Of a stretch of 64,000 nt of DNA, positions 29,855 to 35,746 are shown in pieces. The notes under the pieces were generated by a model, which saw nothing but the letters and a program-made list of their open reading frames with translations, made no database searches and was not told the DNA's origin. The DNA comes from an uncultured Colwellia sp. (GTDB lineage Bacteria; Pseudomonadota; Gammaproteobacteria; Enterobacterales; Alteromonadaceae). Position 1 is the stretch's first letter, and every line of letters starts with the position of its first letter. The stretch spans positions 30,521 through 94,520 of the forward strand of contig CAJXUN010000011.1 in NCBI GenBank assembly GCA_913061475.1, in the 5' to 3' direction. Position numbers and translations under genes: made by a program.

Positions 29855-31912
29855 TTAGTGGTTAAATTTAATCATAATAGGTGCCGATATCACTTTATCA
29901 ACACCAAGATAGGCCGATTGATAGCTCAATGTATTATAAAAATTTGGTTGTATATTTTTGCTGAAGGCGCTCTGCCATTCAATTAAAGCAAAGTCATCAA
30001 TGTTAATCGCGGAACTAGTTCCATCTTGTGAGGTTATTTCTGCAATCACTCGATAACTTTTATAACCAATACGCGGAGAATTGAAATCTAACTCTACATT
30101 TTGCCAAGCTTGGCTTGCCATCAATTCAGTTGTGCCAATTAAATGTTTAGGGCTATTGTCAAAGGCATCAAATAGTTTCTGACGAGTTTTACGCCCCTGC
30201 CAATAAAAGTTAATTTTGATTGGTGCTTGGACATTAAATTTAGCTTTGACTGTCATTGCGCTGCTAGCTTTGTACACCCGTCTAAAACTTTGCATGCCAA
30301 AAATACTTGGGTTAGCAACCGTTAATTTAATATTTAAACTGCGCTGCCCACTGGCACCGAAATTATTCAGTGTTGTGGCGCTGCGTTGAAATACCCAACC
30401 CCGTTCAGGGCTATCAAATGTCGCAAAACTCTCAAAATCGCTGCCGTTAATTAAGTTAGTGCCCAGGCGGTATCCAACATTGTCATCAGGCAATTCAACA
30501 TGAGTTATCGTTCTATGCCACGGCAATTGGTAGAGTGGAATGACTTTCTCACCATTGACCGGATATACCGCTAATGTCAATTTTTCACTCGTTGTTTGAT
30601 TATTTGCTCGGATAACACCATGACCACCTGATGGTATGATCAGGGTATTTCTTTGTTTAGAAAGCTCAGTTAAGCGCTTCATTACGGTATAGCGATGCAT
30701 ACCTGTGGCTGGCGTTGGTTTGTAACCTTTAACATATAGCGGCACAATTTCAGCACGGTGAAACTTACCATCGTCCAGCCAAACATAAAGAATAAAGCTA
30801 TGTTGAGTTGCACTAAAGTTTTGGTCAAAAATAAAATTTCCCATCGAATAAGCAATAAGCTTATTGTTATATAACTCTAGACCTTGAGTGACATGAGGGT
30901 GATGTGCAATTGCCAGAGCAGCGCCTGCATCTAGTGATGACTTTAAACGTTGCTCAGTAACACCGGTGGGGTTATTGGCGTATTCTTGACTACCGTGATA
31001 TTGCACTATCGTGACTTTATTTTTATCTACCTGCTCAGTAACAGACTTCACTATATTGTTCATTGAACCATAAGCGGCACCACCGTGTTGGTCATTTGCT
31101 GTTTGTGTTGGGTTAGCACTACCCTCCCATCCCACATAACCTAACATGGCAAACTCGGTATTTTTAATAGTTTCTGTATGTGCTTTTAAGGCTGACTTTT
31201 CGTCAACACCTGCACCTGAATATCCTAACTCGCTTTTTTCAAGAAAAGCTAACGTTGAGTGAAGGCCAGAATCCATATAGTCATAGGTATGATTATTCCC
31301 TAACGAAACATAGTCAACACCTGCCCAAGTGAGCGCAGAAAGTATTTCCGGCTCAGAGTAAAAGGTGACTGATTTGGGCGCACGCTCTGCGGGTTTTTCA
31401 TCAGCTATTTGAGTTTCCAAATTGATTGCTGCATAGTCAGCCAAACTCATGTAAGGCTTAATATGCTGAACTATCGCTTTGCTATCTTCGAGCTTATTAT
31501 CTTGATGAATAAGTACAGGATCACCAAAGTAAGGTTGATAGTATCTACGCCCCATCATTACATCACCACCAAAAGCAAGCATCACGCGTTTAGACGCTTT
31601 TTTAACTAAACTAATATCGGTGATTTTCGCAGATTGTTGTAACTCAGAATGGCTAAAGGTTTGAATTGAATCAAAATACCCGTCTTTACTAAACCTTAGC
31701 TGATAAATATCATTAACGGCAGCTTTTAAACTGAACTCCCCTATTGCATTGGTTACGGTCTTGACGTTATTTATTTCTACAACAACAGCTTTTAGGGCAT
31801 GACTCTCTTCATCAATGATTCTGCCACTTAAGGAGAAATGTGTTGCCGCAAATGCACTGATATTTAGATTTACGGCGATGATCATCAAAATACAAAAAAA
31901 AATACGAGACAT
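29855..31912 (-). CDS. CapA family (PGA_cap-type metallophosphatase fold) exported protein with N-terminal carboxypeptidase-regulatory-like domain
   Basis: Signal peptide; MLAFGGDVMMGRRYYQPYFGD, INLETQIAD, SLGNNHTYDY, GYSGAGVDE, HPHVTQGLELYNNKLIAYSMGNFIFDQ motifs. Confidence 0.85.
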   Translation of the reverse strand: MSRIFFCILMIIAVNLNISAFAATHFSLSGRIIDEESHALKAVVVEINNVKTVTNAIGEFSLKAAVNDIYQLRFSKDGYFDSIQTFSHSELQQSAKITDISLVKKASKRVMLAFGGDVMMGRRYYQPYFGDPVLIHQDNKLEDSKAIVQHIKPYMSLADYAAINLETQIADEKPAERAPKSVTFYSEPEILSALTWAGVDYVSLGNNHTYDYMDSGLHSTLAFLEKSELGYSGAGVDEKSALKAHTETIKNTEFAMLGYVGWEGSANPTQTANDQHGGAAYGSMNNIVKSVTEQVDKNKVTIVQYHGSQEYANNPTGVTEQRLKSSLDAGAALAIAHHPHVTQGLELYNNKLIAYSMGNFIFDQNFSATQHSFILYVWLDDGKFHRAEIVPLYVKGYKPTPATGMHRYTVMKRLTELSKQRNTLIIPSGGHGVIRANNQTTSEKLTLAVYPVNGEKVIPLYQLPWHRTITHVELPDDNVGYRLGTNLINGSDFESFATFDSPERGWVFQRSATTLNNFGASGQRSLNIKLTVANPSIFGMQSFRRVYKASSAMTVKAKFNVQAPIKINFYWQGRKTRQKLFDAFDNSPKHLIGTTELMASQAWQNVELDFNSPRIGYKSYRVIAEITSQDGTSSAINIDDFALIEWQSAFSKNIQPNFYNTLSYQSAYLGVDKVISAPIMIKFNH

Positions 31913-32038
31913 AGAGCATCCAAAGCTTAGTAATTTGTCTTAGTATATCGTTTTAAATACCTAGATTTCATTCCGAATGATATGTCGACTATAACGTTAG
32001 GGTATGGCAAAAATAATATCCTCTCAATATCAATAGGC

Positions 32039-32150
32039 AAAAAAAACGCCCCTCATATGAGGAGCGTATAACAAACATAAATTTAAAAATAAAACCGAGT
32101 GGGAGAATCTCTTATTAAGTCAGAACCTAACATTCATAATTAGTTCAAAA
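32039..32150 (-). ncRNA. Candidate small RNA, copy A
   Basis: Minus strand: GAACTAA-N27-AGAGATTCtCCCaCTCGGTTTTaTTTTTA...CGCTCCTCATATGAGGGGCGTTTTTTTT; paralog of copy B; ends in an intrinsic terminator. Confidence 0.55.
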
Positions 32151-32220
32151 CTTTTTTAAAATAAAGCCATAATACGCAATTTTTCGTTATTGAGCTGATG
32201 AGTGATATTTTATCATCGGC

Positions 32221-32327
32221 AAAAAAAACGCCCCTCAAATGAGGAGCGGATAAAAACACTAATAAAAACAAAACCGAGGGGGAATCTCTTGCTAAGTATG
32301 AGCATCTTAGTCGTTGTTAGTTCAATT
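32221..32327 (-). ncRNA. Candidate small RNA, copy B
   Basis: Minus strand: GAACTAA-N27-AGAGATTCcCCCCTCGGTTTTgTTTTTA...CGCTCCTCATTTGAGGGGCGTTTTTTTT. Confidence 0.55.
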
Positions 32328-32391
32328 TTATTTAAAATTTTTCGTAGCAATCCCCTCACAGAAAATAGCCAACTGTTTTTTTTGTTAATAT

Positions 32392-32805
32392 TTAAATTGT
32401 TTCAAGCGCCCAGCGTTTGGCAATAAAGTTAAGTACTTTGGTTAATTTTTTACCCAAATAGCCTGATAGTAACTTAGGTGTTTGCTGCAATAGCAATAAC
32501 TCTGACGCTGTTATCGCCACATAACAATCGACTAGCTGATCATCCGACGAAACCATCAGCACATCGTCAGCTAGAAATTCTTTTTTCAGACTGTTTTCTT
32601 CATCTTCGCCGCTATGACCTAGTTCACTAATATCGCAAAGGTAAAAGTTAATCTGCAGAACATGCTCTTCCTCACCGTACCAATTAGCGGTCATAGTATG
32701 AAAGTTTAACTGTGCTTCAAGTTTATTGCTCACTGAGGAAATATTTTCTATCTTAACAACTAAATCATCACTGACTTGAATAGAAATAGGTAACTTTTCA
32801 GTCAT
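32392..32805 (-). CDS. Hypothetical protein
   Basis: ORF MTEKLPISIQVSDDLVVKIENISS...; no family recognised. Confidence 0.7.
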   Translation of the reverse strand: MTEKLPISIQVSDDLVVKIENISSVSNKLEAQLNFHTMTANWYGEEEHVLQINFYLCDISELGHSGEDEENSLKKEFLADDVLMVSSDDQLVDCYVAITASELLLLQQTPKLLSGYLGKKLTKVLNFIAKRWALETI

Positions 32806-33046
32806 AATATCCATGAAGTTAAACGCCTTTTAGTAAAATTATATTGCTCACCAGCCCCTAGTAGAACTTTCAGTTTTTCAACCTACTCAAGCTGCTAAAG
32901 TCACTATATCAATAACCCCGCTCATTTTCTAAGCTTTTGCCTGTGGAATAGTACGGGGAAAATTACAAACGATTCTGGTTGGCAAAATATATCGGCAGTT
33001 ACTCGACCACAGTAATAGCAATAAATGTTTTGCCGATTTTTTCTTT

Positions 33047-33851: not shown

Positions 33852-34568
33852 TTACGGATTGTTAATATCAAACTCGAATTCAATCTCCAATAGTTTGCTG
33901 CCACCACTTGCCGGCGGATAACGCCATTGCAGTAAGGCTTGCTTTGCCGAACGCTCTAATAAACGATTGCCATGCTTATTCAATCCAATAACATCTATTA
34001 CCTTACCTTCATCTGAAATGCGGTATTGTAGCTTTACCGTGCCTGATTTACGTGAATATAGTGCCGATTTCGGATATTCAGGCATCACGCGATGAGTCGG
34101 AACAATTGTAATGGCGGGTTGATTAATTTTTGGTACGTTAACCATATCACTTAAGGTTTTATTCACTGATAAACCTGTGGTTGCGAGCGCAATAGTGTCT
34201 TGATGTACACGACTATTTTCGATGTACTTAGGCGGCAAAATTTCCGGCTTAGGTGGCAAGGGTTGCTTTATCGGTGGCAGCGTTGCTTCTTCTGACTTAA
34301 CTTCGATTACCTCTAATACACGCACAGAATGCTGCTTATATTGATTAGAAACGCCATGTACTGGTGGCTTAGCAAAATGTGTGATCACCGCCATTATACC
34401 AAAAGACGCCGCCCCGCCCGTTATCAATAAAGCCATAATATGCCAGATTGACCGCGTGGATTTAATCGGCTGAGTTTCAGATGCCACGTTGACTATCGGC
34501 GCTTGCAGTTGTTTTTTTCTTTGTTGATAAAGACTCGATAGCTCCTTATCAAATTTATCGTCACTCAT
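33852..34568 (-). CDS. TonB C-terminal domain protein with N-terminal cytoplasmic segment and single TM
   Basis: Pro-rich PPIKQPLPPKPEILPPKY linker; TonB_C: MPEYPKSALYSRKSGTVKLQYRISDEGKV...ALLQWRYPPA; overlaps ECF sigma gene by 4 nt. Confidence 0.85.
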   Translation of the reverse strand: MSDDKFDKELSSLYQQRKKQLQAPIVNVASETQPIKSTRSIWHIMALLITGGAASFGIMAVITHFAKPPVHGVSNQYKQHSVRVLEVIEVKSEEATLPPIKQPLPPKPEILPPKYIENSRVHQDTIALATTGLSVNKTLSDMVNVPKINQPAITIVPTHRVMPEYPKSALYSRKSGTVKLQYRISDEGKVIDVIGLNKHGNRLLERSAKQALLQWRYPPASGGSKLLEIEFEFDINNP

Positions 34569-35128
34569 GATGATGATCCTAACAAATGGCCTAAATTATT
34601 GCGGGCATAACGCAAACGACTTTTTATGGTTTCAAAACTATCGTTCGTTAATACTGAAATTTCCATCACTGAAAAACCTTCTTGCTGGAAGATAAACGCT
34701 TCCCTTTGTAAAAACGGCAACTGCTCAAGTGCAGCATTAAATTGCGTTATTCTATCCGCCGTCAACACTGATTTCTCTAGCGTTAGCGTCAACATTTTAT
34801 TTTCATCTAACAACTGGTTTTGCCATTTTTGTTGGCGTCGAAATTCGTCAATTAAAGTATTGCGAGCAATCGTGAATAACCAACTTTTAACATTACGTTG
34901 CGGAGTATTTTGCGTAGTTTTCATCACTTTTAACCAAGTAGTTTGTACCACATCTTCCGCCACCTCTTTATTCGATTGGCTTAATAAATAGTGATATAGC
35001 GACAAGTTAAATTGCGCAACCAATAAAGACAAATACTTGTTTTTACCGGTTGCAATATAATTTGTCAGCAACATTTCTGGACTGGTTTTGGGGTTATACC
35101 AACCTTTAATCATTGACGGTAACTGCAA
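34565..35128 (-). CDS. ECF-family RNA polymerase sigma factor
   Basis: Region 2 EVAEDVVQTTWLKVMKTT...SWLFTIARNTLIDEFRRQ and region 4 LPFLQREAFIFQQEGFSVMEISVLTNDSFETIKSRLRYARNNL. Confidence 0.9.
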   Translation of the reverse strand: MQLPSMIKGWYNPKTSPEMLLTNYIATGKNKYLSLLVAQFNLSLYHYLLSQSNKEVAEDVVQTTWLKVMKTTQNTPQRNVKSWLFTIARNTLIDEFRRQQKWQNQLLDENKMLTLTLEKSVLTADRITQFNAALEQLPFLQREAFIFQQEGFSVMEISVLTNDSFETIKSRLRYARNNLGHLLGSSS

Positions 35129-35137
35129 ATTTTCATC

Positions 35138-35746
35138 CTAACTTTGTTGGTCCATTTTAAACTCTAATTGAACAGTTAAACCCTGTTGGCTAACCGTTTT
35201 ACCATCTTCTGACTTTGCGCGATATTTCCATTTTCTTAATGCTTGCCGAGCAGCTTTATCAAATACGCGTTTAGGCTCAGCATCAATCACTTCAATATTA
35301 CTGACACCGCCTACGGCATTAATATCAAAGCGCAGTTTCACCCAACCTTCAACACCATCGCGGGCGGCGTCAGCGGGGTATTTAGGGTTAATGCGTACCA
35401 CAGGGCGAGCATCATTATCACCTGTTTGACCGCCAAAACTTAACTTAGCGTTACCAGCCGGCAATTTAATTGGCCCGTTATTGTAATGATAACCACCTTC
35501 AACAAGGGTTTCTACGGGTGCTTCAAAAGTTCTTGGCATAGGTTTAGGCGTTGGTGGTGGATCATTTTTAAATGGTGGCTTAGTTTCCGGCGGCCTTTCT
35601 TCGGGCAACTGTGCAACCTCTACTATCACTTTTGGCAACAACTCGGGGGGCAATACCTGATCGTTATTAACTAAATAGGCCATAAAAGCAAATAAACCAA
35701 AGGTTGTTGCACTGGCAAGGGTTGTTATCGTTATTATCTTTTTCAT
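35138..35746 (-). CDS. TonB family protein
   Basis: N-terminal TM, PEERPPETKPPFKNDPPPTPKPMP linker, TonB_C RINPKYPADAARDGVEGWVKLRFDINAVGGV...ALRKWKYRAK. Confidence 0.9.
   Translation of the reverse strand: MKKIITITTLASATTFGLFAFMAYLVNNDQVLPPELLPKVIVEVAQLPEERPPETKPPFKNDPPPTPKPMPRTFEAPVETLVEGGYHYNNGPIKLPAGNAKLSFGGQTGDNDARPVVRINPKYPADAARDGVEGWVKLRFDINAVGGVSNIEVIDAEPKRVFDKAARQALRKWKYRAKSEDGKTVSQQGLTVQLEFKMDQQS

Follow-up and report, generated by a model that had tools for sequence, protein, structure and literature searches.

The question raised by this locus is what two short repeat units encode, if anything, and what might switch them on. The units, B and A, lie on the minus strand of a 64,000-nt stretch of DNA from an uncultured Colwellia sp. 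(the window), their GAACTAA motifs spaced 177 bp apart. Both consist of GAACTAA, exactly 27 nt, AGAGATTC, CCC(C/A)CTCGGTTTT and then a terminator. This build had been described in a first-pass annotation, and our reading of the sequence and the homologues agree with it; a terminator scan also found both of the near-identical intrinsic terminators that it reported. The annotation took the units for duplicated small RNAs of ~105 nt, with an anti-Shine-Dalgarno core and a constrained hairpin in the 27-nt segment, and not all of this survived.

Conservation and promoter layout of the units

A blastn search with a 351-bp stretch established that the region is conserved beyond one strain, since each of the 16 further genomes of the genus gave a match, with E from 1e-12 to 1e-58; outside the genus the search returned short chance-like matches only. 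A degenerate pattern run against one genome per species (84,980 species) hit 11 contigs, all from Colwellia or Cognaticolwellia, and the strong matches of R1, a covariance model of the RNA searched over 299 Colwelliaceae genomes, were confined to the genus. We collected 40 units from 17 Colwellia/Cognaticolwellia genomes, 1-5 per genome and usually in tandem. Given these units and the blastn matches the repeats lie far above chance, and the proposed duplication of small RNAs is borne out, with arrays that in fact hold one to five copies. The anti-Shine-Dalgarno core was likewise upheld, being conserved across the genus.

Over the 40 units the order of columns is an invariant GAACT, ~16 nt of variable sequence, TCxxA (with T, C and A invariant), CTTA and a AAGAGATTC block. 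The consensus for sigma-E promoters is GGAACTT at -35 and TC-A at -10 (PMC1804206), and the units carry a GGAACTT-like -35, a spacer of ~16 nt and a TC..A -10. Upstream of rpoE, in the genome that holds the window and in the congeners searched, we found GAACTT-N16-TCCTACTT or a close variant, and the gene after rpoE reads as anti-sigma-like (RseA-like); the -35 of most units of the window class is GAACTA as against GAACTT at rpoE. When the whole 4.3-Mb genome (G000) was searched for GAACTN-N16-TCNNACTT, the three matches were rpoE, unit A and unit B. Because the reversed pattern, used as a control, gave three matches as well, the count alone is not rare, and it is the identity of the three matches that constitutes the evidence for a promoter. 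The first-pass annotation had seen no convincing -35/-10 elements, which is correct in that good sigma-70 elements are lacking, but sigma-E elements are present; the elements were missed because they are of the sigma-E and not the sigma-70 type. Judged from these sequences, sigma E, the envelope-stress factor, very probably turns on both units.

As a control for the 5' end we used a true MicA (L268 in genome G316; Rfam match 79.8 bits), which has the promoter GAACTT-N16-TCTGA and an Rfam-defined first base 33 nt after the G of GAACT. Applied to units B and A, this distance leads exactly to the conserved AAGAGAUUC in each, so that the RNAs would start with AAGAGAUUC-CCC-CUCGG and run for about 70 nt (B) and 75 nt (A) (Table 1). 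The transcript of ~105 nt proposed earlier would accordingly shrink to ~70-75 nt, with ~33 nt at the head of the claimed unit taken up by promoter. Each unit then has the layout of a short intergenic RNA with an intrinsic terminator and a predicted 5' end just past the -10. On folding, the C-rich 5' segment was mostly unpaired, and the terminator hairpin was the sole consensus structure of the alignment, with three pairs changed on both sides; two terminator stems were found (starting at 32248 and 32067) against a mean of 0.5 in shuffled sequence.

Table 1. Positions of the two units, their predicted elements and related features (window numbering unless a contig is named)
Feature	Position	Strand	Basis or remark
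Unit B	32323-32221	minus	GAACTAA at 32323-32317
A/T-rich tract preceding unit B -35	about 32324-32343		
Unit B candidate -35, GAACTA (sigma-E type)	32318-32323	minus	GAACT invariant in 40/40 units; layout as in rpoE promoter
Unit B 16-nt promoter spacer (predicted)	32302-32317	minus	constant length, variable sequence; part of the claimed 27-nt segment
Unit B candidate -10, TCATA	32297-32301	minus	T, C and final A invariant in 40/40 units
Unit B predicted small RNA, ~70 nt	32221-32290	minus	5' end placed at 32290 (+-2) from MicA control; CM R1 match
Unit B 5' segment AAGAGAUUCCCCCUCGG, proposed seed	32274-32290	minus	conserved, mostly unpaired
Unit B intrinsic terminator CGCTCCTCATTTGAGGGGCG + T8	32221-32248	minus	terminator scan, folding, compensatory changes
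Unit A	32146-32039	minus	GAACTAA at 32146-32140
Unit A candidate -35, GAACTA	32141-32146	minus	unit alignment and genome-wide pattern search
Unit A 16-nt promoter spacer (predicted)	32125-32140	minus	unit alignment
Unit A candidate -10, TCTGA	32120-32124	minus	unit alignment and genome-wide pattern search
Unit A predicted small RNA, ~75 nt	32039-32113	minus	5' end placed at 32113 (+-2) from MicA control; CM match
Unit A 5' segment AAGAGAUUCUCCCACUCGG, proposed seed	32095-32113	minus	conserved in unit alignment
Unit A intrinsic terminator ACGCTCCTCATATGAGGGGCGT + T7	32039-32067	minus	terminator scan, folding, compensatory changes
140-aa orphan gene	32392-32814	minus	just upstream of the array
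Two gshA-locus units	L285 (G000 contig 53), 1069-1174 and 1316-1418		173 and 420 nt from the gshA stop
Two contig 4 units, GAGAGACTTTATT(T)CCCCC	L300 and L301 (G000 contig 4), 86958-87063 and 93453-93557		

Predicted action on outer-membrane proteins

TonB-dependent receptors are an abundant class of outer-membrane protein in these marine bacteria. Were the promoters read as proposed, unfolded outer-membrane proteins would cause sigma E to be freed from its anti-sigma factor, and both RNAs would be transcribed, each from its own sigma-E (RpoE) promoter (GAACTA, 16 nt, TCxxA) to its own terminator. The conserved, mostly unpaired 5' end (AAGAGAUUC..CCC..CUCGG) would then pair with outer-membrane protein mRNAs, those of TonB-dependent receptors foremost, at their G-rich ribosome-binding sites; Hfq would probably assist at the linker and tail, whose U-richness fits such a role. 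Pairing would block translation and destabilise the mRNA.

Predicted sites point to the receptors as a group. GGGA occurs in the ribosome-binding sites of 11 of the 29 TonB-receptor genes of G000, compared with 22 of 323 background genes (p = 1e-5), and in G004 the corresponding figures are 6/22 and 11/258 (p = 8e-4), the background for target scoring being 21 stretches per genome with start codons predicted by script. Predicted seed pairing was also better for the receptors (p = 5e-4 in G000 and p = 0.012 in G004, a related genome and so not a fully independent replicate), and in either genome a single shuffled seed out of 200 reached the contrast. The best example of a receptor site, GGGAGAGUACUUAAUG, is identical in the two. 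For Porin_4 and OmpW genes, pairing was not clearly different from background; the earlier proposal that the core pairs with ribosome-binding sites has statistical support for TonB receptors in two genomes, with no clear effect for these two families. It may also be that TonB receptors just favour GGGA sites. Pairing of the small RNAs with TonB-receptor mRNAs has moderate support from these predictions, and the RNAs probably silence genes for outer-membrane proteins. On the whole we consider it likely that the units are paralogous sigma-E small-RNA genes, belonging to a multiplied family, that repress outer-membrane proteins.

The rival that fares best accepts the sigma-E dependence and places the main targets elsewhere than in outer-membrane receptors (GGGGA-site mRNAs, or sponges), and it gains from several non-OMP genes that are predicted to pair equally well or better, for example at GAGGGGAUAAAAUG and GAGGGGAACAACAAUG sites. 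However, in two genomes the TonB receptors show enrichment when taken together, and the sigma-E small RNAs already known target omp mRNAs (PMC1804206), which makes this rival rather unlikely in our estimation.

Relation to known small RNAs and further units

If the units are sigma-E small RNAs that repress outer-membrane proteins, they have well-known counterparts: MicA in enterobacteria, and RybB and VrrA in enterobacteria and Vibrio, are sigma-E-dependent repressors of this kind. The family had not been recognised in the first-pass annotation, and in Rfam no family reached its gathering score for the window units: MicA (RF00078) gave no match for 31900-32500 even at E<10, VrrA (RF01456) scored 19.7 bits where 50 are needed, and RybB (RF00110) stayed short of the gathering score. 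A literature search found no paper on such small RNAs in Colwellia. With MicA the units share the predicted sigma-E promoter and an identical distance from -35 to 5' end, a length of ~70-75 nt, a purine-rich GAAAG/AAGAG start, UCCC in the 5' half, and a terminator with a U tail; they differ from it in their seed and their tandem copies (1-5), and whereas sister units of the same genome occupy the MicA locus (gshA downstream, antiparallel), the window units stand beside the 140-aa gene instead. With RybB and VrrA they would share control and probable mode of action, but there is no significant sequence match and the 5' seed is different. The best reading is that the units are MicA/RybB-like in action and, by the tests run, outside those families. 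To our knowledge, sigma-E small RNAs have been described mainly from enterobacteria and Vibrio and as single genes, RybB and VrrA included.

Tandem or multiplied copies with a common seed are shared with OmrA/OmrB, PrrF1/2, LhrC, Qrr and NgncR_162/163, none of which is known to be under sigma E, other regulators controlling them; no sequence relation to any of them was found. The resemblance to the OmrA/OmrB type (at least two tandem copies, a conserved 5' seed, own promoter and terminator) is one of architecture, not homology.

Profile searches brought the number of units in the same genome to six at three loci, four of them beyond the window pair. Model R2 returned the window pair, the pair at the gshA locus (E 0.10 and 0.0018) and the pair on contig 4 (E 8e-5 and 1e-4). 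The second of the gshA-locus units (GAAAGC..CTCCCTGGACTGCTTTC) is strongly conserved across Colwelliaceae, and the contig 4 units, ~6.5 kb apart, flank a region with a TonB-receptor gene. The position downstream of gshA, in antiparallel orientation, is that of MicA in E. coli (PMC2956633). When this locus was read in 30 genomes, sigma-E-type units with terminators appeared in most of the Colwelliaceae examined, that of the window included.

With model R3, run over 41 genomes at E < 1e-4, each same-genus genome yielded 3-7 units, and several more came from other genera of the same family; the next matches followed only after a clear gap. Nearly all of the 20 places that we read had a promoter, a RAGAG start, a C-run and a terminator, the purine start and the C/T-rich core being partly selected for, as the script required them. 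Among the weak R1 matches in other genera, four of 14 loci read (L248, L249, L250 and L253) had a rightly placed promoter. At L249 there are two tandem copies and at L253/L262 four, with rightly placed promoters and RAGAG starts, and the L262 array lies immediately downstream of gshA and antiparallel to it; at L248/L250 the promoter is present and the distance from -10 to core differs. Most other weak R1 matches in other genera look like unrelated terminators. Two further places in another genus (L266:6237 on the plus strand and L267:7050 on the minus strand) show a sigma-E-type promoter, then a longer gap before the core (CTCTCCCC/TTCTCCCC) and the terminator (CCTCCGCATGCGGAGG), and are possibly another branch of the small-RNA family.

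The window units would thus form one class of a multiplied sigma-E set, with other classes at the gshA (MicA) locus and at one other locus. Seed and terminator vary from class to class (AAGAGATTCTCCCCTCGG in the window class, GAGAGACTTACTTCCC, GAGAGAGTTATTCCCC, and GAAAGCAAAACCTCCCTGG at the MicA locus), and their build and position suggest that all derive from one gene. More tentatively, a MicA-like ancestor sited at the gshA locus may have multiplied in Colwelliaceae into dispersed tandem arrays with diverging seeds (3-7 units per genome, up to five per array), making a dosage-tuned envelope-stress battery directed at TonB receptors; we regard this as possible but doubtful.

The family is uncatalogued and unusually multiplied in cold-water Colwellia, and would make a clean new Rfam entry. 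If our reading is right, tandem duplication and changes of seed are the route by which the RNA arm of the envelope-stress response evolves in this marine lineage, and that arm is tied to TonB-receptor dosage in nutrient-scavenging bacteria. The one to five copies per array provide a natural copy-number series for asking why small RNAs duplicate.

Neighbouring genes and the 27-nt segment

The 140-aa gene encodes a protein that matched no Pfam or NCBIfam family, and a homologue of it adjoins the array in 16 of 17 other loci, the exception being a contig-end fragment. This constancy, together with the finding of no further terminator between the gene and unit B, would suit a view of the units as mere duplicated terminators, or as the 3' UTR of the gene. 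Conservation is highest, however, in the promoter elements and the 5' segment and not in the terminators alone, and unit A sits behind the terminator of unit B. Because like-built units with promoters of their own occur where the 140-aa gene is absent (the gshA locus, contig 4 and other places), the 3' end of an mRNA is a very unlikely explanation.

An ECF sigma factor is encoded with TonB-like partners 2 kb away (34565-35128), and conceivably it, and not RpoE, could read the promoters. Yet a promoter matching that of the units stands upstream of rpoE itself, and whereas the array is conserved, a homologue of the ECF gene adjoins it in 4 of 17 other loci; linked in only a minority of loci, this factor is a highly improbable driver. 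The ECF gene stands between two genes with TonB C-terminal domains (33852-35746), one of which overlaps it by a few bases, and the three possibly form a regulated TonB system.

As for the constrained hairpin claimed for the 27-nt segment, both window copies allow a CTAAG/CTTAG stem, but only 3 of the 40 units retain it intact, 58% of cells being paired, and in stability the segment does not exceed shuffled sequence, which leads us to regard it as promoter spacer. The segment is the spacer and -10 region of the predicted sigma-E promoter GAACT(T/A)-N16-TCxxA, and its constant length is the spacing of that putative promoter. That the two copies allow the stem would favour a ~105-nt small RNA under sigma-70 with its 5' hairpin conserved, but such an RNA is hardly credible given the loss of the hairpin in the homologues and sigma-70 matches that are weak and nowhere properly positioned. 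An alternative CTCTT/AAGAG hairpin, with 92% of cells pairing, was rejected, as it spans the -10 and the 5' end and its near-invariant arms give no proof of pairing.

One array, that of genome G014, contains between two of its small-RNA units a ~160-bp element with inverted ends, AACCTGAACTC..GAGTTCAGGTT (L054:5880-6045), which looks like a small inserted repeat.
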